From positions 62,001-126,000 of the forward strand of contig MWCQ01000005.1 in the NCBI GenBank assembly GCA_002070105.1: DNA of 64,000 bases, written 5' to 3'. A program made the translations under genes and the position numbers. Shown here in pieces: positions 8,448-50,806 of the stretch (the first letter of the stretch is position 1; each line of letters starts with the position of its first letter). The stretch is from Firmicutes bacterium ADurb.Bin193 (GTDB lineage Bacteria; Bacillota; Clostridia; Monoglobales; Firm-18). The notes under the pieces were generated by a model. It was not told the origin of the DNA and ran no database searches. It saw only the letters and a list, made by a program, of their open reading frames with translations.

Positions 8448-8509
8448 AGTAACATAAATACATCTTCCACCAATATAAAAATTAAGTGGACATATAAGGA
8501 GGTAAAAAA

Positions 8510-9688
8510 ATGAAAAAAAGTAATTTGGCGAGATTGATTTGTATGGTACTGGCGCTTACGGTTTTATTGACGGCAAATGTTTTTGCGATAGGTACAGATC
8601 AGGTATCTGTAATCTATGATCCGGTTTCTTCTATAACCTATGATTTTAATGACGGTGCTGTTCCGGGCTTGTTCGCATTACCTACTTCCAACAACGCCAA
8701 ATATGGGAAAATGACTTTTAGTGAAGAGGTAGAGGGAGACAGATATCTCATCTTTGAAGATGGTAATCTTAATAATAAAGGTCAGGGAAGGACTGACTAC
8801 TCAATCCAGGTTTGCCACGCTCCGATGTCCATAGAATACGACTTTTGCATTCCCGAATACACAAAGACGGCTGCCGGCGACAATATTCCGGCGATGATTC
8901 TTTTTATTACCAACTATTCTTCGCCGGGAGTCAAAGGTACGCAGGGTTCCGGAAAAACCGCGATGTCGCTCACATGCGACAAGGATGAAAACGGGGATCT
9001 TAAATTTTCGGTGGTTGTATCGGGCGCTGCTATTGAGGGTGTCTTCGAAGATCCGTTGTCATTTGACACCTGGTATAGAGTGAAGATAGACGCCCATGCT
9101 GAAAAGTATCAGGCAGTCGTTTCTCTTTATGACAGCTCCGGCGAATTGATTGACAAAACAGGCACAATAACCGTGGCAAACAGCACATACTCAACCGATG
9201 TAACTCCCGACGGTTTTGTTGGGCTTTCCTTTGCTACGGGCTCGCAGACAGCGAATGTTTCGGCCGAAGAGCAGTCCAAAATCTATATAGACAATTTCAC
9301 ATTTACCCGTGAGAGGTTTTCCTTCTCTTCAAAGCCTGCAATCTCACAGGACGGCGACGAAATAACCGCTTCGGTGGTTGTTAGAAACGAAATTGCGGAG
9401 GAAACTACTGCGCCCGCGCTTATACTTGCGCTGTTTGACGCCAAGGGCAAGCTTGTCGGCATTAGCGTAAACGACAGCGAGCCGATTGCCGCAAGGACAG
9501 ATCCGGGCCTTCCGACAACTACAAATGTTGCTTGGCCTAACGGGTTTGCTCTGCCGGCTGAGGCAACCGTAACTTGCACGCTGCCCAAGGGCGACGCTGC
9601 TACGGCTTCTGCTTACCTATGGACAGATGTAGATACCGGAATGCAGCCTTACTGTGTTGTGTCCGATATTTTAACCGTCAGTGAATAA
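8510..9688 (+). CDS. Secreted protein A of a tandem paralogous trio
   Basis: A 392-residue exported protein of unknown function. Residues 1-26 are a signal peptide (KKS, hydrophobic core, cleavage after 'NVFA'). Residues about 38-265 look like a jelly-roll, LamG/concanavalin-type beta domain: 'YDFNDGAVPGLF', 'DTWYRVKIDA', 'IYIDNFTFTRERF'. Residues about 270-392 form a small beta-sandwich domain with 'ALILALFDAKGKLVGI' and 'ASAYLWTD', a pattern I know from the C-termini of many clostridial extracellular proteins. No catalytic motif or cell-wall anchor is visible. ATG start with AGGAGG. From 8701 to 9601 the DNA is identical to protein B. Confidence 0.75.
   Translation: MKKSNLARLICMVLALTVLLTANVFAIGTDQVSVIYDPVSSITYDFNDGAVPGLFALPTSNNAKYGKMTFSEEVEGDRYLIFEDGNLNNKGQGRTDYSIQVCHAPMSIEYDFCIPEYTKTAAGDNIPAMILFITNYSSPGVKGTQGSGKTAMSLTCDKDENGDLKFSVVVSGAAIEGVFEDPLSFDTWYRVKIDAHAEKYQAVVSLYDSSGELIDKTGTITVANSTYSTDVTPDGFVGLSFATGSQTANVSAEEQSKIYIDNFTFTRERFSFSSKPAISQDGDEITASVVVRNEIAEETTAPALILALFDAKGKLVGISVNDSEPIAARTDPGLPTTTNVAWPNGFALPAEATVTCTLPKGDAATASAYLWTDVDTGMQPYCVVSDILTVSE
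8701..9601 (+). repeat. About 900-bp direct repeat, copy in gene A
   Basis: Base-for-base identical, as far as I can read, to 10245-11145. It covers the beta domain and most of the C-terminal domain, with divergence starting abruptly at both ends. Confidence 0.85.
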
Positions 9689-9860
9689 AAAGCCGCTTTG
9701 TGGTGCTGACCTCTTATATTTCACAGCTTACAATCCGGGTCGATGTCTAATATAATTACAGATAAAACGATGCCGTATTTTAGCTGATTAGCGACTATTC
9801 GATAAAAACAAAATAACGGGGTGGCATCACACCCGGAAGTTACTTGGGTTTTTACAATCT

Positions 9861-9894
9861 ACAAAGCCTCCGCTTGTTTTAAGGGAGGCTTTGT
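9861..9894 (+). terminator. Terminator after gene A
   Basis: ACAAAGCCTCC / GGAGGCTTTGT, 11-bp perfect stem, about 170 bases after the stop. Related hairpins follow genes B and C. Confidence 0.65.
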
Positions 9895-9897
9895 TAT

Positions 9898-10047
9898 TAG
9901 TTAAGGTTTGCATTACTCGGCATATACTTTAGAAAGCTATTTTGAAAATTGACAGACCGAAAGCAACGACGGCAACGGCAATATTTTAGAAGTATATTAG
10001 TTGATTTCCAAGCTTAAAATAAATATTATTAATATGAGGGGGTCTGA
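9898..10047 (+). promoter_or_regulatory. Conserved upstream region of gene B (paralogous to that of gene C)
   Basis: This stretch aligns with 11358-11509 before gene C: both have TTGAC followed by a degenerate GACCGAAAGC / GGTCGATAGC block, a CGGCAA or TGGCAA with a 17-base spacer to TATATT or TATAAT, and 'AGTTGATTTCC'. It may be a shared promoter/operator. The equivalent region before gene A is different. Confidence 0.45.
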
Positions 10048-10050
10048 AAA

Positions 10051-11229
10051 TTGAGAAAAAAGAATTTGGTAAAATTTATCAGCATGGTATTGGCGCTTAT
10101 GGTTTTTTCGGCGGCAAATGTCTTTGCGGCTGCGGGTGAGTCGGACCAGGTATCTGTAATCTATGACCCTGTTTCGGTAACCTATGACTTTAATGAAGGT
10201 GCTGTTCCGGGCTTGTTCGCATTACCTGCTTCCAACAACGCCAGATATGGGAAAATGACTTTTAGTGAAGAGGTAGAGGGAGACAGATATCTCATCTTTG
10301 AAGATGGTAATCTTAATAATAAAGGTCAGGGAAGGACTGACTACTCAATCCAGGTTTGCCACGCTCCGATGTCCATAGAATACGACTTTTGCATTCCCGA
10401 ATACACAAAGACGGCTGCCGGCGACAATATTCCGGCGATGATTCTTTTTATTACCAACTATTCTTCGCCGGGAGTCAAAGGTACGCAGGGTTCCGGAAAA
10501 ACCGCGATGTCGCTCACATGCGACAAGGATGAAAACGGGGATCTTAAATTTTCGGTGGTTGTATCGGGCGCTGCTATTGAGGGTGTCTTCGAAGATCCGT
10601 TGTCATTTGACACCTGGTATAGAGTGAAGATAGACGCCCATGCTGAAAAGTATCAGGCAGTCGTTTCTCTTTATGACAGCTCCGGCGAATTGATTGACAA
10701 AACAGGCACAATAACCGTGGCAAACAGCACATACTCAACCGATGTAACTCCCGACGGTTTTGTTGGGCTTTCCTTTGCTACGGGCTCGCAGACAGCGAAT
10801 GTTTCGGCCGAAGAGCAGTCCAAAATCTATATAGACAATTTCACATTTACCCGTGAGAGGTTTTCCTTCTCTTCAAAGCCTGCAATCTCACAGGACGGCG
10901 ACGAAATAACCGCTTCGGTGGTTGTTAGAAACGAAATTGCGGAGGAAACTACTGCGCCCGCGCTTATACTTGCGCTGTTTGACGCCAAGGGCAAGCTTGT
11001 CGGCATTAGCGTAAACGACAGCGAGCCGATTGCCGCAAGGACAGATCCGGGCCTTCCGACAACTACAAATGTTGCTTGGCCTAACGGGTTTGCTCTGCCG
11101 GCTGAGGCAACCGTAACTTGCACGCTGCCCAAGGGCGACGCTGCTTTAGCCGTTGCTTACCTTTGGACTGATATAGGCACCTCTATGCAGATTTACAGCA
11201 GTGCCTCTGAGGTTTTAACCATCAGTTAA
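10051..11229 (+). CDS. Secreted protein B of the tandem trio (mosaic)
   Basis: A 392-residue exported protein, TTG start with GAGGGGG upstream. The signal peptide (RKKNLVKF..., about 26 residues) resembles that of protein C (RKKNLVKL...), whereas residues about 65-365 are identical to protein A; the last 26 residues differ again ('DIGTSMQIYSSASEVL'). So the gene is a mosaic, best explained by gene conversion from A or by unequal crossing-over. Domains are as in A: jelly-roll beta domain then a small beta-sandwich domain. Function unknown; a cell-surface or carbohydrate-binding role is a guess from the fold. Confidence 0.75.
   Translation: MRKKNLVKFISMVLALMVFSAANVFAAAGESDQVSVIYDPVSVTYDFNEGAVPGLFALPASNNARYGKMTFSEEVEGDRYLIFEDGNLNNKGQGRTDYSIQVCHAPMSIEYDFCIPEYTKTAAGDNIPAMILFITNYSSPGVKGTQGSGKTAMSLTCDKDENGDLKFSVVVSGAAIEGVFEDPLSFDTWYRVKIDAHAEKYQAVVSLYDSSGELIDKTGTITVANSTYSTDVTPDGFVGLSFATGSQTANVSAEEQSKIYIDNFTFTRERFSFSSKPAISQDGDEITASVVVRNEIAEETTAPALILALFDAKGKLVGISVNDSEPIAARTDPGLPTTTNVAWPNGFALPAEATVTCTLPKGDAALAVAYLWTDIGTSMQIYSSASEVLTIS
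10245..11145 (+). repeat. About 900-bp direct repeat, copy in gene B
   Basis: Matches 8701-9601 without a mismatch that I can see; offset 1,544 bases. Confidence 0.85.
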
Positions 11230-11320
11230 TAAAAAAGCCGCTTAAATAGGGCTTACCTTTCGATAAAAACTGAATAATAAGACAAAAGCGTATCCCCTTG
11301 GAATTACTTATAATTAAATT

Positions 11321-11355
11321 TACAAGGTCTTCGCTTATTTTAAGGGAGGCTTTGT
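11321..11355 (+). terminator. Terminator after gene B
   Basis: ACAAGGTCTTC / GGAGGCTTTGT. Compared with the hairpin after gene A, three positions in the left arm have changed but each still pairs as G-U, so the stem is kept. Confidence 0.55.
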
Positions 11356-11509
11356 ATTTGGTTAAGGGTCGTATGACCCGGAATATACTTTCGAAAGTTT
11401 TTGGAAATTGACCGGTCGATAGCGGCGATGGCAATGACAATAATTACGAAATATAATAGTTGATTTCCAGGCTTTATATAATTATTACACTTATATAGGA
11501 GGCAAAACA

Positions 11510-12703
11510 TTGAGAAAAAAGAATTTGGTAAAATTAATCAGCATGGTATTGGCACTTGTGGTTTTCTCGGCGATAAATGTATCCTCGGCACAGATTTTTA
11601 CATTTATTAATCCGGCTACATTCACGGAGGATTGCGAGACATTTTCGGGCTATGTAAACACCGCTTCCGGGGGGAAAAGCTGCTTTGTGGGAATGGGTTC
11701 TAATGTTTCAGTACTTACAACTAAGACCGATAGCAATAACCCGCAGATTAACCAGTACTTGGAGGTTAAAGACCATTCGAATAATGGTTTTGGCAGGGCT
11801 AATATTATTGCCGCGGGCGGAACTACCGGTCCTTCGACCTGGTCGTTTAACATCCGTGTTCCGGATTATACTATTGATACCAAAATTCCGTTTGTAAAAA
11901 TAGGGTTTAACGACAGGTTAACTGCAAATTCGATACTTAGTGATCAGAAAGAGGTTTGTGCCATTACTTTTATACATGACGACAACGGCGATTTGCAGCT
12001 GCAAGTAAATGACGGAACCAGCTTTAAGATTGGCGGGACATCCGTAGATGTTGACTTGTTTGATCCCTTGGAATTTGACACCTGGTACACCTTTACATTT
12101 GATGTTGATCCCAACACAGCGCAATATACCTTCACGGTAGGCGATATAGACGGAACTCCGCTTGACGGCTACTCCGCATCAAGAGAAGTAAAGACCAATA
12201 CTACGGGAAGCAGCATTAGCACAACCCCTCTTATGGGAGGCATTATAATAGGTGCAGGTGCTTCTGCGGGTGCTGACGGCGACCCTGTACTCCATTTTGA
12301 TAATGTAAGAATAACAAGAAACCAGTTTGCTGTTGTAGACCTGCCTGTAATCAGTGACATTACCGAAGGTAATGTTACAGCTACGGCTACGGTAACAAAC
12401 GACCTGCCTTTGGAAGCGACATCTCCGGTTCTGGTGCTTGCGCTGTATGACGCGAAAGGTAAGCTGATTGGCATAACGACCGATTCAAAGGCAATGGCGG
12501 CAAGAGACATAGCTGACCCGCCTCCCGCCAATCAGAGCACTGGTTCTTATTGGGATGCCGCTGTAGTATCCGAAACTCTTACCTGCGAGCTTGAAGCAGG
12601 TGACGCCGTAAGGGCAACTGCCAATATCTGGAGCGCCGTTTACGGAGAGAACAGCATGATACCTTATATAACCCCTGTTAATAAATCTTTAATAACCGAT
12701 TAA
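11510..12703 (+). CDS. Secreted protein C of the tandem trio
   Basis: A 397-residue exported protein, TTG start 7 bases after AGGAGG. Signal peptide of about 24 residues ending 'NVSSA'. The order of parts matches A and B: a LamG-like beta domain (about 35-275; 'FDTWYTFTFDV', 'LHFDNVRITRNQF') and the C-terminal beta-sandwich domain ('VLVLALYDAKGKLIGI', 'ATANIWSAV'). Sequence identity to A/B is much lower, so this is the old duplicate, whereas A/B is recent or homogenised. No enzymatic motif is visible. Confidence 0.75.
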   Translation: MRKKNLVKLISMVLALVVFSAINVSSAQIFTFINPATFTEDCETFSGYVNTASGGKSCFVGMGSNVSVLTTKTDSNNPQINQYLEVKDHSNNGFGRANIIAAGGTTGPSTWSFNIRVPDYTIDTKIPFVKIGFNDRLTANSILSDQKEVCAITFIHDDNGDLQLQVNDGTSFKIGGTSVDVDLFDPLEFDTWYTFTFDVDPNTAQYTFTVGDIDGTPLDGYSASREVKTNTTGSSISTTPLMGGIIIGAGASAGADGDPVLHFDNVRITRNQFAVVDLPVISDITEGNVTATATVTNDLPLEATSPVLVLALYDAKGKLIGITTDSKAMAARDIADPPPANQSTGSYWDAAVVSETLTCELEAGDAVRATANIWSAVYGENSMIPYITPVNKSLITD

Positions 12704-12768
12704 TTTGAGGTTATATCAGTCACACATCGGATTCAAATAGGATTATAGAAACATGTATTATTAAACTC

Positions 12769-12802
12769 ACAAAGCCTCCTCTTATTTAAGGGGAGGTTTT
12801 GT
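12769..12802 (+). terminator. Terminator after gene C
   Basis: ACAAAGCCTCC(TC) / GGGAGGTTTTGT-type stem with an A/T-rich loop; third member of the A/B/C terminator series and convergent with the DMT transporter gene. Confidence 0.6.
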
Positions 12803-16548: not shown

Positions 16549-17937
16549 TTACTGACTTTTGTTATGCTTTCTCCAGTGCTCCAAATCAGGGTAATCACTG
16601 CTGAAATACTGCTGATTTGTGAAACCGGGCGCGTTGGGCGCACTGACGGTCGGCAAAAACCTTTTCAGGTTTTCCTTAATATGCGCATAGTTCGGGTTTT
16701 GTGCAAGGTTGTTCCACTCAAATCGGTCATACAATCTATTGTACAGCTCCTCCGAACCGTCAAAATACCTTATGTATTTCCAAAACTCGGAGGTAATACA
16801 GTGCGAGTCCCTGCCGTGGGTTGTGATGGCGGGTATATCCCAATCGGCTTCGGGGTTGTCAAGCAGAGGCACAATGCTTGTACCCTCAAGCTCTTGTGTG
16901 GGCTTTCCTAAATTGCATAGCTCATTCAGCGTGGGATAAAGGTCGATTAGGCTGACCGGCTTTGTGCATATCCTGTTTTGAGTTTTGCCGGGGCAGGATA
17001 CAATAAGCGGAACCCTTGTAGACTCACCCCAAAGCGTAAATTTCTTATAGGTGTGCTTTTCGCCGAAATGCCAGCCGTTGTCGCCCCAAAACACAATTAT
17101 GGTATTGTCGGCGTAGGGGCTTTTTTCAAGCGCGTCAAGCACCCTTCCTACCTGAGCGTCCATATGGCTGACACAGGCGAGATAGGCGTGAAGCACATCC
17201 TTTTCCATATGGTTTTCCCTTATGTATTGGGTGATTTTCTTCTTCACCAGACGCTTTCCGGCGTCGGGGATGTCGTCAAGGTCATCCTCTTTTATATAAA
17301 TATCCTGCAGCTTGTCCTTTTCATAAAGCTCAAAGTACTTCCTCGGACACACAAAGGGAAGGTGCGGCTTATAAAGACCGAGACCCAAAAAGAAGGGCCT
17401 ATCATATTCCTTTGAAAGCTGCTCTATCGCCCATGAGGCGTGCGCATAGTCGCCGCACTCCTCCTCAGGTATATCTCTCGGTCCGAACACCATACCATAG
17501 TTTTCTTTTGATTTAGGCTCCGCTTCGCCGTTAAATGTAAGGGTGGAGTTTTCAAACGACGGCCAGTATTCGTGCCACTCCGAAGGGTCGGGCCCGTGCG
17601 GAAGCGGCATATGGTGAATTTTGCCCGTACCCATTACATAGTATCCGTTGTTCATAAAATGCTTGGGCAGGGTGACGGCGTCGGCAAGCATGGGGATTGA
17701 ACGAAGCGGCTGAAAGCCGTAGGCGCCGGAGGTGGAAGGGCGTATGCCCGTAAGAAGGCTGTTCCTTGACGGCGCACACATAGGCGCCTGGCAATGAGCG
17801 TTGGCAAACAGCACGCCCCTTGCGGCAAGCCTGTCTATATTCGGAGTTTTCGCCTGCGGATATGAAAGCATACAGCCGGCAAAATCCCTAAAGTCATCCG
17901 CAACGATAAAGAGAACATTCGGTTTTTTGTTTTCCAT
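16549..17937 (-). CDS. Sulfatase, iduronate-2-sulfatase-like
   Basis: A 462-residue sulfatase. 'VLFIVADDFRD' holds metal-binding Asp residues; Cys54 in 'CAPSRNSLLTGIRPSTSG' is the formylglycine precursor; 'FWGDNGWHFGEK' is the second metal site and 'YKKFTLWGESTRVPL' follows it, a pattern of the iduronate-2-sulfatase (S1_7-like) branch. No signal peptide. Middle gene of the three-gene operon. Together with the downstream sulfatase (branch different) and the propeller protein it suggests stepwise desulfation of an oligosaccharide. The 2-O-sulfo-uronate specificity is only an inference from branch resemblance. Confidence 0.9.
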   Translation of the reverse strand: MENKKPNVLFIVADDFRDFAGCMLSYPQAKTPNIDRLAARGVLFANAHCQAPMCAPSRNSLLTGIRPSTSGAYGFQPLRSIPMLADAVTLPKHFMNNGYYVMGTGKIHHMPLPHGPDPSEWHEYWPSFENSTLTFNGEAEPKSKENYGMVFGPRDIPEEECGDYAHASWAIEQLSKEYDRPFFLGLGLYKPHLPFVCPRKYFELYEKDKLQDIYIKEDDLDDIPDAGKRLVKKKITQYIRENHMEKDVLHAYLACVSHMDAQVGRVLDALEKSPYADNTIIVFWGDNGWHFGEKHTYKKFTLWGESTRVPLIVSCPGKTQNRICTKPVSLIDLYPTLNELCNLGKPTQELEGTSIVPLLDNPEADWDIPAITTHGRDSHCITSEFWKYIRYFDGSEELYNRLYDRFEWNNLAQNPNYAHIKENLKRFLPTVSAPNAPGFTNQQYFSSDYPDLEHWRKHNKSQ

Positions 17938-25179: not shown

Positions 25180-25294
25180 AATCGTATACATTAAAACATA
25201 GGTGCAATTCGCCAGTCGAATTGCCTCGCACCGTTTCAATAGATGCAACGGGATAAAACCGAAAGGTTTTATTACCTTGAGCGCATTTATTATA
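25180..25294 (-). ncRNA. Structured leader element, copy 3 (upstream of secG)
   Basis: Minus strand, beginning at TATAAT (25294-25289). Hairpin 1: arms AATAAATGC / GCATCTATT enclose GGTAATAAAACC / GGTTTTATCCC with a 4-base loop. Hairpin 2: GAAAC ... GTTTT enclose GGTGC and GCAATTCG / CGAATTGC, then CACCTATG. It matches copies 1 (36899) and 2 (46715) in plan, with many base differences that keep pairing. The leader reaches to about 25 bases before the secG start. Confidence 0.7.
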
Positions 25295-25317
25295 GCACAT
25301 ATACATATAGAATGCAA
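25289..25317 (-). promoter_or_regulatory. Promoter at the leader element, copy 3
   Basis: TTGCAT (25317-25312), 17-base spacer, TATAAT (25294-25289). The -10 is the first conserved part of the element; the spacer and -35 are not shared with the other copies. Confidence 0.7.
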
Positions 25318-36698: not shown

Positions 36699-36723
36699 AA
36701 TTATTATAGTAGCAGAATAAATT

Positions 36724-36841
36724 AAAAAAGCGTTTCGGCGCGAAGCGATTTCCGAAACGCATCCTCTCGCCGCGCGGGCGTAAGCGCAGGCGGATTCATT
36801 CCGCCAAAGCGCAGAAATTGCGCATGCTTGCGCAATTTCAT
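36724..36841 (+). repeat. Dispersed palindromic repeat, copy 1
   Basis: About 118 bases made of consecutive hairpins: GCGTTTCGG / CCGAAACGC, a GC-rich GCGCGGGCG part, GGCGGA / TCCGCC with a short loop, and GAAATTGCGCA / TGCGCAATTTC. Copy 2 (40861-40976) is about 80 percent identical in the opposite orientation. No coding content. Confidence 0.8.
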
Positions 36842-36849
36842 ATAGATTT

Positions 36850-36874
36850 AAAAAAGTGCCGACGGCACTTTTTT
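36850..36874. terminator. Bidirectional terminator after spoVM
   Basis: AAAAAAGTGCC / GGCACTTTTTT, 11-bp perfect stem with GAC loop. Confidence 0.75.
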
Positions 36875-36875
36875 G

Positions 36876-36904
36876 TTGAATTATGGAATCAACAATGGTA
36901 TAAT
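36876..36904 (+). promoter_or_regulatory. Promoter at the leader element, copy 1
   Basis: TTGAAT (36876-36881), 17-base spacer, TATAAT (36899-36904). Confidence 0.7.
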
Positions 36905-37010
36905 AAATGCAAAAAGGAAATAAAGCCTTATCGGCTTTATCCCGATGCATTTATTGAATCGGTGTGAAGCAAGCCGATTGGCGGCTTGCATATATGATTT
37001 AATAATCGCA
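36899..37010 (+). ncRNA. Structured leader element, copy 1 (upstream of DUF975 gene)
   Basis: Starts at TATAAT. Hairpin 1: arms AATAAATGCA (36902-36911) / TGCATTTATT (36946-36955) around ATAAAGCC / GGCTTTAT. Hairpin 2: GAATC / GATTT around GCAAGCCG (36969-36976) / CGGCTTGC (36982-36989), followed by TATG. In copy 2 the inner hairpin-1 pair G-C is A-T, a compensatory change. The leader ends about 70 bases before the start codon. Confidence 0.7.
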
Positions 37011-40840: not shown

Positions 40841-40850
40841 CCTTCCTTTT
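40828..40850 (+). terminator. Terminator of the methyltransferase gene
   Basis: GGAAGG / CCTTCC stem overlapping the stop codon, followed by TTTT. Confidence 0.6.
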
Positions 40851-40860
40851 ATATTCATAG

Positions 40861-40976
40861 GAAATTGCGCAAACCCGGCGCAATTTCTGCGCCACGGCGG
40901 AATGAATCCGCCTACGCTTACGCTCGCGCGGCGAGCGGATGCGTTTCGGGAAGAGCTACGCGCCGAAACGCTTTAT
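40861..40976 (-). repeat. Dispersed palindromic repeat, copy 2
   Basis: Reverse-oriented counterpart of 36724-36841, with the same hairpin series. It supplies the last codons and stop of tcdA and begins 20 bases after the methyltransferase stop. A 13-base piece of its outer end (ATAGGAAATTGCG) recurs at about 46269. Confidence 0.8.
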
Positions 40977-41720
40977 TATACACAAATCCTTTATAACCTC
41001 CGAGGCGAGGATAAGCCCCGCAACCGATGGGACGAATGAAACACTTCCGGGAATCTGCCTCTTTACAGCTCCAAAGCCCGTATTTAATTCCTTTTCCGTA
41101 TTAAATTTTTGTCCTTCTGCTTGTGACAGAGGCTTTAGCGGAGGCTCCTTTGAGTACACAGCCTTAAGCGAGTCAATCCCTCTTGCCTTAAGCTCTTTTC
41201 GCATGACCCTCGCAAGCGGACAGACCGAGGTTTTATAAATGTCCGAAACCGTAAACGCCGTCGGGTCAAGCTTGTTGCCCGCACCCATACTGCTTATTAC
41301 GGGAACTCCCGTTTTTTTTGCGTTTACTATTATAAGAATTTTTGAGGATACGGTATCTATCGCGTCTACAATATAGTCATATTCCGAAAAATCAAATTCA
41401 CTCTCCGTATCCTTGTTGTAAAAAAGCTGAAAAGCATTTACCTTTACATCGGGGTTAATCTCCAAAATTCGCTTTTTCATGACCTCAACCTTCGGCATAC
41501 CGACTGTTTTGGTTGTTGCGATAAGCTGTCTGTTTATATTTGACGGGCATACGATGTCGCCGTCCACAAGACCGAAAGAGCCGATACCGCACCGCGCAAG
41601 AGCTTCAACGGCAAACGACCCGACCCCGCCCGTCCCGAAGACCGCCACGCGCGAGCTTTTAAGTATTTTTATGCTGTCCTCACCGAGTAACAGAGAGGTC
41701 CTTTCAAAAATATCCTGCAA
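40956..41720 (-). CDS. tcdA: tRNA threonylcarbamoyladenosine dehydratase (TcdA/CsdL)
   Basis: E1-like enzyme that cyclises t6A37 of tRNA to ct6A using ATP. It has 254 residues with the ThiF/MoeB-type nucleotide motif 'VAVFGTGGVGSFAVEALARCG', 'DGDIVCPSNINRQ', 'DYIVDAIDTVSSK' and the family's 'GAGNKLDPT' and 'VCPLARVMRKELKARG'. The final codons for 'KRFGA' and the stop come from the inserted palindromic repeat, so the natural C-terminus was probably changed slightly; the catalytic part is intact. Confidence 0.93.
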   Translation of the reverse strand: MQDIFERTSLLLGEDSIKILKSSRVAVFGTGGVGSFAVEALARCGIGSFGLVDGDIVCPSNINRQLIATTKTVGMPKVEVMKKRILEINPDVKVNAFQLFYNKDTESEFDFSEYDYIVDAIDTVSSKILIIVNAKKTGVPVISSMGAGNKLDPTAFTVSDIYKTSVCPLARVMRKELKARGIDSLKAVYSKEPPLKPLSQAEGQKFNTEKELNTGFGAVKRQIPGSVSFVPSVAGLILASEVIKDLCIIKRFGA

Positions 41721-45734: not shown

Positions 45735-45811
45735 GCGCTGTTAGCTCAGTTGGATAGAGTGACTGACTACGAATCAGTAGGTCAGAGGTTCGAGTCCTCT
45801 ACAGCGCGCCA
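45735..45811 (+). tRNA. tRNA-Arg (ACG)
   Basis: 77-nt gene. Acceptor GCGCTGT / ACAGCGC, then G and encoded CCA; anticodon stem ACTGA / TCAGT around loop CTACGAA gives anticodon ACG; T-arm with GGTTCGAGTCC. The A34 would be edited to inosine. Confidence 0.97.
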
Positions 45812-45943: not shown

Positions 45944-46019
45944 AGGGGTATAGTTCAGCTGGTAGAGCAACGGTCTCCAAAACCGTGTGTCGAGGGTTCG
46001 AATCCTTCTGCCCCTGCCA
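45944..46019 (+). tRNA. tRNA-Trp (CCA)
   Basis: 76-nt gene. Acceptor AGGGGTA / TGCCCCT, G, encoded CCA; anticodon stem ACGGT / ACCGT with loop CTCCAAA gives anticodon CCA; T-loop GGTTCGAATCC. Probably in one transcript with tRNA-Arg. Confidence 0.97.
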
Positions 46020-46022
46020 TGT

Positions 46023-46051
46023 CGGAGCAAAGTTCGCTTTGCTCCGTTTTT
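46023..46051 (+). terminator. Terminator of the tRNA operon
   Basis: CGGAGCAAAG / CTTTGCTCCG, 10-bp perfect stem with TTCG loop and T5. Confidence 0.85.
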
Positions 46052-46450
46052 GTTTGTACAAAAACCTCCGCCCGCTTCCTTGCTCCTCTTTTTCCGAAAA
46101 AAGTCACGCTTGCTGCGGCTATGCCATTGTAAACGCTGGTACAACGCCTTCGCTGCGCTACCAACCTTTTTCGGGCTGTGCGCTTACGGGGTAAAACATC
46201 CTTTTTGGTGTCTTTTCCCATACAAAAGCCCGTAACCACATAGGTTACAGGCTTTTGTGTTTTATACTTATAGGAAATTGCGAAAGTATGTAGTTTTACA
46301 ATTTACAATTTTAATTCTCGTATGTAATTATTAATTAATAAGTAGACAAATCGCTCAATAGATAGTAAAACATATCTACACCCCGCTTAAATTGAATAAT
46401 AGATCGAGCAGTTATAACGGATATTTACATACAAAGCAAAATGAGACAGG
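46052..46450. other. Intergenic region after the tRNAs
   Basis: No supported gene. It contains a hairpin ACAAAAGCC / GGCTTTTGT (46222-46258) that reads as a bidirectional terminator and, at about 46269, the 13-base edge of the palindromic repeat. ORFs here are translations across tRNA sequence. Confidence 0.5.
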
Positions 46451-46529
46451 AGTGAATTGAACATTGTCGAAGATTACGCTGACGGGCGGCGGGGGAAATT
46501 CCCTGCCGCCTGTTTTCAATCAATGGAAA
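46451..46529 (+). repeat. 79-bp direct repeat, left copy
   Basis: 76 of 79 bases equal 49046-49124. The core is a GC hairpin GGCGGC...GCCGCC followed by TGTTTT, which could act as a terminator. Confidence 0.85.
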
Positions 46530-46575
46530 AACACAAGGGAACGATACATAAGGGTACAGTTCTCTTGTGTTTTTT
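46527..46575 (+). terminator. Terminator-like hairpin
   Basis: AAAAACACAAGGGAAC / GTTCTCTTGTGTTTTT stem with one mismatch and a 16-base loop, ending in T6. Confidence 0.6.
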
Positions 46576-46690
46576 AAGGATTATTTAAACTTGATAAAAT
46601 AAGACAAATCGTTATTTTGCACTATTTTAGTTTTGAAATTTATGTTTTTTGGTATAAATAGCATTATATTTGCAATATAATGTTGAAATA

Positions 46691-46720
46691 TTGAAAGAAA
46701 GTGCATATATGGTATATAAT
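46691..46720 (+). promoter_or_regulatory. Promoter at the leader element, copy 2
   Basis: TTGAAA (46691-46696), 18-base spacer, TATAAT (46715-46720). Confidence 0.65.
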
Positions 46721-46822
46721 AAATGCAAACATGGTAATAAAACCTAATCGGTTTTATACCTATGCATTTATTGAATCGGTGTAAAGCAAGCCGATTTCAG
46801 GCTTGCGCCTATGATTCAATAT
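46715..46822 (+). ncRNA. Structured leader element, copy 2 (upstream of secreted protein)
   Basis: Starts at TATAAT. Hairpin 1: AATAAATGCA (46718-46727) / TGCATTTATT (46763-46772) around GGTAATAAAACC / GGTTTTATACC. Hairpin 2: GAATC (46773-46777) / GATTC (46813-46817) around GCAAGCC (46786-46792) / GGCTTGC (46800-46806), then GCCTATG. The start codon of the next gene is about 50 bases further on. Confidence 0.7.
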
Positions 46823-46871
46823 GGACTGTGAATATATATTCACAAATACATTATGTGAGGAGAGTGTAAAA

Positions 46872-48998
46872 ATGAAAAGGTTCACATTATCGGTAATGGT
46901 GCTAATGGCATTTCTCTGCGTTGTTTTGTTAAGTCCTTTTGCACCATCGGAATCGACACCGCTTGTCTCGGCGGCAGCAACATGGAAACCCTTTCCCGGG
47001 CGCCTTGCTTACAGCTGTGACGGAGGCTATCACGATAAAGACGATATTGCTGCTAACCCTTTTCTTCTGTTGCTTCTTTACAAAGCCGGTTTAGCAGACA
47101 AGCTGGTTCACTTCGAGTATGCAAATCACATCTGGCTTTCAGACGCTACACAACTTAATAGTCTTATATCCGCAACAAATGAAGCGGTAACCAGATTTGG
47201 TTTTAACCCGAATATATTCTACAACTGCATGAATGCGAACAAAGACCCCATTTATAACCATCTTAGGGATGAAATTCTTGCTTCTACCGCATCAAATCCT
47301 CTGACCATCTGCGGTGCGGGACCGATGCATACAATCTATCAGGCGCTCTCGCGAGCTAATGCTCAAGACCCGAGCAAGCTTCAGTATGTGACGGTTATTT
47401 CACATTCGCCCAAAACAGGTGATTTGAGCAGTAACAATGAGCACGGCTTGTATGACCATGCTAAGGCGCCCGACCCCACCCATACACATAAAAATCCGAC
47501 GGCTAAGGTATGGGATGATATCGCTGCTGATTTCCCCTCTGTAAAGCTTGTTATCATTCGCGGTCAGAACGGCCCCGGCACTACCGCTCTCGAAAGAAAT
47601 GCTCCTTATGATTTTCGTGTGGCAGATTCTTACAATGCAGAACAATGGATGGAAGATTCCACCGATGACGATATTCGTTGGGTATGGGAAAATATGAATG
47701 CTGTCCACGGCACTTTAAACGATGTGTCCGATGCGGGTATGGTATGGTATTGGATGACCGGCGGCGATGCGTATGGCGATTTCGTTAAGACGAAGGTTGC
47801 ATTAACAAGCGATTATATTCTTGATCTTAATTTTAATTCAGATACCTTATCAAGTCCGCCTTCAGGCTGGGTGGATATTACCGGCGATGTGACGATTGCC
47901 AATGTGCCGAGTGTGTCGTATGTTCCTGCCGTTCCGGATAAGGCAATGGAGAATACTCATTTTAAGGACAAGTGCATAAAGATAAATGACACGACCTCAA
48001 GCAGTTGCACCGCGACTAAAGTATTTGCGGATCAGTCTGCGGATTTTGTGGTGGACTATGATTTTATGGTTTCAACTGCTTCGGCGGATTATGTTGGTAT
48101 AGAAGTTAAAAACAGCACAGGAGATGCTGCGGTAATGGTAAAAACCGTTGGAAGCAATATAAGTTATAAAACCGGCGGATCATGGACACCCATTACAAGT
48201 TACACGCAAAACAAATGGCATCACATCACAATATATGCCAACAAAGGAACAAACAAATGCAGTATAATAGTTGACGGTAAGTTGGAAGTGGATAATTTGG
48301 ATATGGCGACTGTATCTAATCCAATAAACAATATAACATTCAAAACAGGCACTACTTATCAAGGCGTTGCATATTTTGATAATCTTAAAATATTCTCACC
48401 TTCCGCCGCACCAACCCCTACTCCGACACCCTCACCAACCCCAACACCGGCAGGCGACTATCTCATAGATGATAACTTCAATAACCAATCAGCAGGGAGT
48501 ACGCCGACAGGCTGGACGGTTAGCGGAGATGTGAAGGTTGCGAACATTCCGAGTGCTTCTGATAAAAGTATAAAGTTTAACGATACTGATGCAAGCACCT
48601 TAACAGCAGTTAAGGGTTTTGCACAGCAGACGGGCGCAATCACGGTTGAATACGACTTTATGGTGCCTGCAACGGTAGATTTTGCGGGGTTACAGCTTGA
48701 GGACGGAAGCGGGACGACAGCTATAGTACTAAAGACCAGGTACGGACAAATCGCCTATAAAAAATCAGACGATAGTTGGGCTAACCTTCAGGCATACAAT
48801 CCAAACACATGGTATAGCATCAGGATAGAAGCTGATGTCTCAACCGATACATACAGCGTCTATGTAAACGGCGTAGAGAGGGCGAACGGTGTAGCTTTTA
48901 ACAGAGCCGTATCGTCTATAGAGCAGATAAAATTCACAACAGGCAGTTCCTATACCGGTCTAATGTATGTGGACAATGTAAAGGTTTATAAGCCGTAA
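46872..48998 (+). CDS. Large secreted protein: nucleoside-hydrolase-like domain plus two LamG-like domains
   Basis: A 708-residue exported protein. ATG 46872 follows GAGGAGAG; signal peptide about 1-32. Residues about 38-300 resemble the nucleoside-hydrolase fold: 'YSCDGGYHDKDDIAANPF' recalls the D-x-D-x(3)-DD calcium site, although the first Asp is replaced by Cys-Asp order and the family match is weak. Then two LamG/CBM-like beta domains (about 310-515 and 545-708, each ending 'YFDNLKIF' or 'YVDNVKVY') joined by a Thr-Pro linker 'PTPTPTPSPTPTP'. Function unknown; likely binds or acts on a glycan or nucleoside-containing polymer outside the cell. It is bracketed by 79-bp direct repeats. Confidence 0.7.
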   Translation: MKRFTLSVMVLMAFLCVVLLSPFAPSESTPLVSAAATWKPFPGRLAYSCDGGYHDKDDIAANPFLLLLLYKAGLADKLVHFEYANHIWLSDATQLNSLISATNEAVTRFGFNPNIFYNCMNANKDPIYNHLRDEILASTASNPLTICGAGPMHTIYQALSRANAQDPSKLQYVTVISHSPKTGDLSSNNEHGLYDHAKAPDPTHTHKNPTAKVWDDIAADFPSVKLVIIRGQNGPGTTALERNAPYDFRVADSYNAEQWMEDSTDDDIRWVWENMNAVHGTLNDVSDAGMVWYWMTGGDAYGDFVKTKVALTSDYILDLNFNSDTLSSPPSGWVDITGDVTIANVPSVSYVPAVPDKAMENTHFKDKCIKINDTTSSSCTATKVFADQSADFVVDYDFMVSTASADYVGIEVKNSTGDAAVMVKTVGSNISYKTGGSWTPITSYTQNKWHHITIYANKGTNKCSIIVDGKLEVDNLDMATVSNPINNITFKTGTTYQGVAYFDNLKIFSPSAAPTPTPTPSPTPTPAGDYLIDDNFNNQSAGSTPTGWTVSGDVKVANIPSASDKSIKFNDTDASTLTAVKGFAQQTGAITVEYDFMVPATVDFAGLQLEDGSGTTAIVLKTRYGQIAYKKSDDSWANLQAYNPNTWYSIRIEADVSTDTYSVYVNGVERANGVAFNRAVSSIEQIKFTTGSSYTGLMYVDNVKVYKP

Positions 48999-49045
48999 GA
49001 AATAAACAATCCTTATTCGTAACATTTGCGGTGTAAAGTGGTCGT

Positions 49046-49124
49046 AGTGAATTGAACATAGTCGAAGATTACACTGACGGGCGGCGGGGAAAATTCCCTG
49101 CCGCCTGTTTTCAATCAATGGAAA
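49046..49124 (+). repeat. 79-bp direct repeat, right copy
   Basis: Three mismatches to 46451-46529; 48 bases after the stop of the secreted protein, so its GC hairpin may be that gene's terminator. Confidence 0.85.
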
Positions 49125-49321: not shown

Positions 49322-50806
49322 GTGAAAAAGGTAATAATCATAGGCGCGGGAATCTCAGGGCTTACAGCGGGTGTATATGCACTGCAAAGCGGGTTTGATG
49401 TGACAATCTATGAATCTCATACAATACCGGGCGGCGCTTCGACAAGCTGGCGGCGGAAGGGATACTATTTTGAAGGCGGTATTCACTGGATGACAGGCAC
49501 ACTACCCGATACGCCGACAAATAAGGTGTGGAAAAACATCGGCGCGCTGAGCGACGACATTCCCATTCATGTTCGCGACCCGTTTTTAACATATGATTTC
49601 GATAGTCTGACAATTTGTCTGTATCGTGATATTGACAAGCTTCATAAGCATCTATTAAGCATTGCGCCCGAGGATAAAAAGGAGATTGAAAGACTGTTTC
49701 GGGATGTAAAAAAGATGTCAAAGATTTCTATGCCGATTATGGACATTAAGGGCGTAAAGGTCAGGGAAAAGTCGGGTGTACCGCTTTCGTCCATAATTAA
49801 AATGCTTCCGGCGTTTGCCCTCATACCGTTTTATTCAAAACAAGACAGCGGGGAATTTTCAAAGCGCTTCAGAGACCCAATGCTCTCGCAGTTTATTAAA
49901 ACCATAATAGGGCCCGAAAACAACGCATTAGGCATGGTGCTTACAATTGCAACCCTTGCAAGCGGCGACGGAGGTTACCCCGAGGGTGGCTCATTGGCAA
50001 TGGCTCGGCGCATTGCGGATAAATTTGAGGCTTTGGGCGGAACAATAAATTTCGGCTCACCCGTAAGCAAGGTTGTAACCAGAGACGGAAAGGCCGTTGG
50101 GGTTTTGCAGGGCGAAAACGAAATTCCTGCCGATGCGGTTATCGTTACGCAGGATACGCTTGCGGCTATCGATACGCTGTTTGAAACACCGATTAACGAA
50201 CCGTGGGCGGAAAAAATGCGAAAGGAAACAAAGCCCGTGCTCAACACATTTGTAAGCATCGGTGTTGAGGAAGAATTATCCGATTTACCCGAAAGCCTGT
50301 ACTTTAACCCCAAGGTTCCTTTCTATTGCGGAGGGCAGGAGCAAACCATCGTAAATATCAATAATTATGCCAAATTTAAGGACTATGCGCCCGACGGGTG
50401 CACGGCGATAACCTCGATAATCGGGGGCGATACCTATGAGTTTTGGAAGCAGTGTAAGCAAAACGGTACATATAATGAAGAAAAGGAAAGGCTTGCAAAT
50501 GCGCTTATCGAAATTATCGAAAACAAATGGCCGAGAATAAAAGGCAAAATTGCGGTATGGGATGTTGCAACCCCGCTTACATATGAGCGCTATTTAAGCT
50601 CCTACAAAGGCTCATGGATGTCGGTTATGGGAAAGGGCAGTAAGATGGAATCATATCCTACCAAGCCTAAAAGCATAAACAACCTGTATTTCGCGGGTCA
50701 GCGCCTTATGGTTCCGGGCGGTCTGCCCGTAGCGGCAGAAACGGGAAGGAAGGCAGTACAGTATTTGTGCAGGGATACCGACACGGTATTCCAGGGCAAG
50801 ATGTAG
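49322..50806 (+). CDS. FAD-dependent oxidoreductase, phytoene desaturase (CrtI)-like
   Basis: A 494-residue flavoprotein. The N-terminal dinucleotide-binding motif 'VIIIGAGISGLTAGVYALQ' continues to the conserved Glu of 'VTIYE' and 'GGASTSWRRKGYYFEGGIH', the pattern of the phytoene desaturase/amine oxidase family; the C-terminal FAD motif is 'NNLYFAGQRLMVPGGLPVAAETGRK' (in part 'GGLPVAAETGRKAVQYL'). GTG start after GAGGAGG. Carotenoid enzymes are not adjacent; in gut clostridia such proteins often have unknown substrates (retinol saturase-like or all-trans lipid reductases). Ends before a hairpin at 50821. Confidence 0.85.
   Translation: MKKVIIIGAGISGLTAGVYALQSGFDVTIYESHTIPGGASTSWRRKGYYFEGGIHWMTGTLPDTPTNKVWKNIGALSDDIPIHVRDPFLTYDFDSLTICLYRDIDKLHKHLLSIAPEDKKEIERLFRDVKKMSKISMPIMDIKGVKVREKSGVPLSSIIKMLPAFALIPFYSKQDSGEFSKRFRDPMLSQFIKTIIGPENNALGMVLTIATLASGDGGYPEGGSLAMARRIADKFEALGGTINFGSPVSKVVTRDGKAVGVLQGENEIPADAVIVTQDTLAAIDTLFETPINEPWAEKMRKETKPVLNTFVSIGVEEELSDLPESLYFNPKVPFYCGGQEQTIVNINNYAKFKDYAPDGCTAITSIIGGDTYEFWKQCKQNGTYNEEKERLANALIEIIENKWPRIKGKIAVWDVATPLTYERYLSSYKGSWMSVMGKGSKMESYPTKPKSINNLYFAGQRLMVPGGLPVAAETGRKAVQYLCRDTDTVFQGKM

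Follow-up and report, generated by a model that had tools for sequence, protein, structure and literature searches.

The window (the whole stretch of DNA that was analysed, 64,000 nucleotides) contains, between two tRNA genes and a gene for a FAD-dependent amine oxidase or phytoene-desaturase-like protein, a secreted-protein gene preceded by a promoter-like site and a structured leader element (Table 1). Both sides of this unit are occupied by a copy of the same 79-bp sequence in direct orientation, named T1 and T2 here. The pair had been noticed in an earlier sequence-only reading, and its coordinates, its 76 identical bases out of 79 and its spacing of 2,595 nt were all found to be exact, as was the statement that the repeats enclose one leader and one gene. 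T1 begins about 435 nt after the end of the second tRNA gene, which it does not overlap, and approximately 190 nt of A+T-rich sequence lie between T1 and the further hairpin on its left. Conservation within the leader family starts with the -10-like box of the promoter-like site. Nine neighbouring proteins between 38369 and 55692 were scanned against Pfam (small ORFs were left out), and no recombinase was identified among them, in agreement with the previous claim that no integrase or transposase is nearby.

Table 1. Features of the repeat-flanked locus, in window positions.
Feature	Position	Strand	Remarks
tRNA genes, left neighbours	45735-45808, 45944-46016	+	Arg and Trp by eye from anticodons
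Terminator-type hairpin behind second tRNA	46023-46046		Order read on + strand
Further hairpin	46222-46258		Order read on + strand
79-bp direct repeat, copy 1 (T1)	46451-46529	+	Hairpin of about 15 bp with flanks; no coding sequence directly ahead
Second terminator-type hairpin, unrelated to T1	46527-46574	+	21-nt arms, T run at end; directly 3' of T1
Promoter-like site, TTGAAA-18-TATAAT	46691-46720	+	Consensus match 11/12
Leader element, structured	46714-46822	+	One of 14 strong copies in the genome; no Rfam match
Secreted-protein gene, 708 aa	46872-48998	+	Signal-peptide-like start by eye; C-terminal PF22585
79-bp direct repeat, copy 2 (T2)	49046-49124	+	Starts 47 nt past the stop codon of the gene
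Right neighbour, FAD-dependent amine oxidase / phytoene-desaturase-like	49322-50806	+	

The domain at the C-terminus of the secreted protein is annotated as Sialidase-like_CBM, while its N-terminal 286 aa matched no Pfam family even at E ≤ 1. Pfam also reported a match to the neurotoxin receptor-binding N-domain, at 25.3 bits (cut-off 23.8) and with the last part of the profile only; this probably reflects a shared jelly-roll fold rather than an identity as toxin. The structure model of the N-terminal domain is of low confidence (mean pLDDT 54) and found no PDB match at E ≤ 0.001. A likeness to nucleoside hydrolases appeared in weak matches among many unrelated folds and was discounted as evidence. 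One paralogue of the N-terminal domain is present in the genome, on contig C10, with 53% identity (61% over the domain); it ends in a different 3' hairpin and has no copy of the leader or of the 79-bp repeat beside it. Because of this diverged paralogue in the same genome, the gene family may have been resident for long. In two surveys, one of 100 relatives (none in the 99 others) and one of 291 genomes of the class, the N-terminal domain was confined to its own genome, which marks the secreted-protein gene as accessory here. No relatives of the gene were found in viral_contigs, and a narrow scan of genome_contigs with two motifs confirmed none; distant homologues with 28-36% identity are located on three plasmid records, two from Persicobacter and one from Catenovulum. 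The GC3 of the gene (0.43) falls within the range of seven nearby genes (0.42-0.53), and composition therefore shows no recent foreign origin.

T1 and T2 differ at repeat positions 15 (T/A), 28 (G/A) and 45 (G/A), a divergence of 3.8% that leaves, from the mismatch positions, 34 nt as the longest perfectly identical run; so small a number of differences suggests, as far as the sequence can indicate, a recent event. The similarity ends sharply at both edges: of the ten bases that adjoin the repeat, 4 match on the left side and 1 matches on the right side. Approximately 10^-31.5 such pairs are expected in random 64-kb sequence, which excludes a chance origin. Direct pairs with a length of 50 bp or more, an identity of 85% or more and a distance of 500-20,000 bp were sought in 416 kb of the own genome (all of contig C5 and most of C1). 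Only four were present, namely T1/T2, a 1.2-kb tandem duplication, a pair of leader copies and a 52-bp pair. A search for further copies throughout the genome, which the sequence-only reading had proposed, returned exactly two at E ≤ 0.001, T1 and T2 themselves, in the 2.63 Mb of this draft assembly (2,628,739 bases in 58 contigs, with an estimated contamination of 4.77%). When the threshold was relaxed to E ≤ 10, two extra short matches of 20 and 31 query bases appeared, both at chance level, so that a dispersed repeat family is not present. In a set of 40 genomes (the own genome and 39 relatives), just short partial matches were obtained outside the own genome. A 25-mer taken from the repeat was absent from genome_contigs, its 26-nt hairpin was absent from viral_contigs, and the stretch carrying T1 gave no match when searched against phages; the parts of the literature covered by a brief search held nothing relevant.

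T1 and T2 form the same G+C-rich hairpin, with a stem of about 15 bp, and it is kept in T2 because the change from G to A at position 45 turns a G-U pair into an A-U pair. Compared with shuffled sequences, folding yielded z scores of -8.7 for T1 and the second hairpin together and -4.2 for T2. Like intrinsic (rho-independent) terminators, T2 presents a stable G+C-rich hairpin just past the stop codon, followed by T-rich sequence, and it is probably the 3' hairpin, and putative transcription terminator, of the secreted-protein gene. Unlike such terminators, the repeat has a short U-tract in its tail (TGTTTTC), conserves about 30 nt of pre-hairpin sequence between its copies and occurs as an extra copy ahead of the promoter of the gene. 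A scan for terminators that required 5 or more T in 8 reported the second hairpin (46546-46570) but neither T1 nor T2; with this result and the short U-tract, "terminator" is no more than a likely description of the two repeats.

The relatives listed for the study of synteny include no genome of the same genus. Orthologues of the GH26-like left neighbour were found in two of 16 genomes, the own one included in that number. In one of them (G001) the surrounding stretch has no tRNA gene and other neighbours, the gene after GH26 resembling by eye its NAGPA partner, and in the other (G002) a tRNA-Pro and again other neighbours were found. The right neighbour has a single orthologue at E ≤ 1e-60 among 50 genomes (in G012), in a different context, and a more distant DUF2339 neighbour occurs in two of 16 genomes (G003 and G012), with other surroundings in G003. 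Since the orthologues of the neighbours lie in other contexts, the order of the locus is not conserved among the relatives examined, and none of these presents an empty site.

The explanation that we prefer, and to which we give about an even chance, is that T1 and T2 are the scar of a single past recombination or duplication around an accessory promoter-leader-gene unit, and not a mobile-cassette system. An accessory unit consisting of promoter, leader, gene and T would have become part of a plastic intergenic region next to the two tRNA genes, by way of single-crossover integration at a resident T or through an insertion that duplicated the 79-bp joint. Both routes would give the order T-unit-T, in which T1 would be the extra copy, recently acquired and situated before the promoter of the gene, and today the two repeats might act as mere hairpin punctuation that isolates the unit. 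Judged from the sequence, this order, with its sharp edges and 3.8% divergence, would fit one duplication or recombination event. The accessory nature of the gene and the lack of synteny in the relatives examined make a past insertion compatible with the data; the missing empty site, the native-like GC3, the short U-tract and the diverged paralogue count against the preferred explanation. The identity and number of the repeats, the hairpins, the order of the features, the absence of a recombinase among the scanned neighbours and the patchy distribution of the gene were established directly; terminator activity, gain instead of loss, and a crossover mechanism are what we infer.

Integration at a resident T and insertion with a duplicated joint are not the only routes to T-unit-T, as a tandem pair that loses one of its members yields it too. 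It is possible, though in our estimate rather unlikely, that two adjacent genes each ended in T and that the upstream gene was deleted with T1 left behind. T2 is the natural 3' end of a gene, related genes exist in the genome, and the 1.2-kb tandem duplication on the same contig indicates that tandem duplication happens here; nevertheless, the match between the two sites ends precisely with the 79 bp, the hairpin behind the C10 paralogue is a different one, and the sequence upstream of T1 gave short matches only with the 3' part of the gene and with three related regions. A remnant of a lost gene was also sought at 46219-46450 by comparison with the 3' part of the gene, the paralogue regions and the rest of the window, again with short matches only; the notable one is 23 nt at 40847, part of an inverted repeat elsewhere in the window. 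Gain is moderately favoured over such loss because the gene is accessory and comes with a promoter-like site and a leader of its own, and because the sequence upstream of T1 shows no trace of a lost gene. The alternative put forward by the sequence-only reading, in which each repeat is the terminator of a gene-family member, is unsupported as a family trait, considering that the genome holds no third copy and that the hairpin of the paralogue differs. We consider it improbable that a small mobile hairpin element of the REP or MITE type was inserted twice: such intergenic palindromes resemble the repeat in being short, hairpin-forming sequences, and the compact hairpin, the sharp edges and a faint end symmetry (ATTGAACA / TGTTTTCAAT, by eye) agree with this, but REP and MITE elements are expected in many dispersed copies, whereas only two were present in 2.63 Mb, in the same orientation, 2.6 kb apart at one locus. 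In addition, no target-site duplication was seen by eye in the flanks, and none of the 39 other genomes has a full-length relative. An artefact of the draft assembly is the least credible of all the explanations; the draft status and the estimated contamination would allow it, but the three differences leave no identical run longer than 34 nt, and the repeat is far from the ends of its 149-kb contig.

A cassette that is still active, from which recombination between the repeats would remove the gene as a circle, would be suggested by the direct orientation and 96% identity of T1 and T2 and by the self-contained nature of the promoter-leader-gene-T unit. It is nonetheless very improbable indeed, because of the lack of a recombinase among the nine neighbouring proteins, of attC boxes and of more repeat copies in the genome, and because perfect identity extends over no more than 34 nt. 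The proposal that the gene could have been inserted, or could be excised, as a cassette is thus possible in its first part, as history only, and has no support as a system that still moves. Integron gene cassettes likewise consist of one gene with a hairpin-forming direct repeat (attC) on each side. The attC R-boxes have the motifs RYYYAAC / GTTRRRY. Neither motif was matched on either strand of T1 or T2, and no similar sites were found elsewhere in the genome; in further contrast to integron cassettes, no array or integrase was seen, the copies number two, and the stem is terminator-like and does not have the attC fold. Genomic islands and integrative elements whose att repeats are located at tRNA genes were considered as well, as the locus shares with them direct repeats near tRNA genes and an accessory gene in between. 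This candidate was rejected: the repeat misses the 3' end of the tRNA gene by the distance given above, no integrase occurs among the nine scanned proteins, and a single gene is enclosed.

A bolder version of the insertion reading, which we hold to be very improbable, is that a self-contained, portable expression unit entered the locus through recombination at its own 79-bp terminator-type repeat and may still leave it in the same way. If this were true, single genes would move by crossover at terminators, with no need for a dedicated recombinase, and an incoming gene would find a ready expression signal in the widespread leader. An empty site in sister strains, if found, would represent a clean single-gene exchange through a terminator repeat. 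Taken alone the repeat pair matters little, as a local scar that marks the tRNA-adjacent region as plastic.

The leader element was investigated across the own genome, where a DNA search gave 19 matches at E ≤ 1, weak ones included. With a model built from 13 copies, the matches at E ≤ 0.1 numbered 24. Fourteen of these are strong (E < 1e-10), the next match has an E of 7e-5, and among the weaker matches several are antisense on true copies. Besides the copy in Table 1, the window holds leaders at 36898-37005 (+) and 25188-25295 (-). All 14 strong copies are located upstream of a same-strand ORF: two are tandem copies ahead of one gene, and in two other cases the ORF is short, with 76 aa (SecG-like by eye) and 75 aa. 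The other genes with a leader are mutually unrelated by eye (YicC, metA-type, Wzz-type, SDR, iron-ADH-type and others). Six of 40 genomes, again including the own one, had a match to the model at E ≤ 0.001, the relatives being G001 (3 matches), G004 (10, among them overlapping or antisense ones; tandem copies also occur), G012 (1), G014 (2) and G039 (1, weak, 6.5e-4). The copies in relatives (L129-L140) bring the family to five genera of the order; a YicC-like gene carries the leader in G004 as well, and no same-strand ORF that reaches 100 aa follows closely after the copy in G012. In contig C28 of the own genome (G000), two tandem leaders before one gene (16764-17006; L013, L147) are 95% identical.

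The structure of the leader is accompanied by covariation. In the 13-copy alignment 7 of 31 pairs change on both sides, and none of 500 shuffles reached the observed score, while further pair types were not above shuffles (338/500). In an alignment of 28 rows from five genera, which was fitted to the structure via the model and in which one row is an antisense match, 9 of 19 pairs change on both sides (0/500 shuffles). The family starts at TATAAT, which overlaps the first stem, and this stem covaries. If TATAAT is the -10 box, the 5' arm of the first stem would be untranscribed, in conflict with its covariation. With a covarying structure, no matching Rfam family, positions before many unrelated genes and a presence in five genera, the leader outweighs the repeat pair, which is of low interest; the leader may represent a new regulatory class and is worth a separate study.

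The repeat bracket is not shared by the other leader genes that were inspected. At nine leader loci, the leader and its gene are bracketed neither by direct repeats (30 nt or longer) nor by inverted ones (35 nt or longer), the repeats present being located at a distance from the leader or else between tandem leaders, and the leaders at window position 25188 and at C1:194577 have no bracketing repeat of at least 35 nt. Some other repeats were observed along the way. In the window, inverted repeats of about 131 nt (86% identity) at 36723-36853 and 40847-40978 bracket approximately 4 kb with a leader (36898), DUF975-like and GtrA-like genes (by eye) and a gene for an Eco57I-type DNA methyltransferase, possibly an invertible or inserted segment. 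The motif ATAGGAAATTGCG is present at the inner edges of these inverted repeats (40857-40869 and, on the minus strand, 36831-36843) and upstream of T1 (46270-46282); with at most one mismatch, these three matches in the window compare with 0.24 expected. A tandem gene duplication of 1.2 kb with 94% identity is located at 8492-12800, with similar hairpins downstream of three units. Finally, contig C3 of the own genome contains a 139-nt inverted repeat (91%; L144, 2195-2332 and 2724-2862) about 3 kb from a leader copy.
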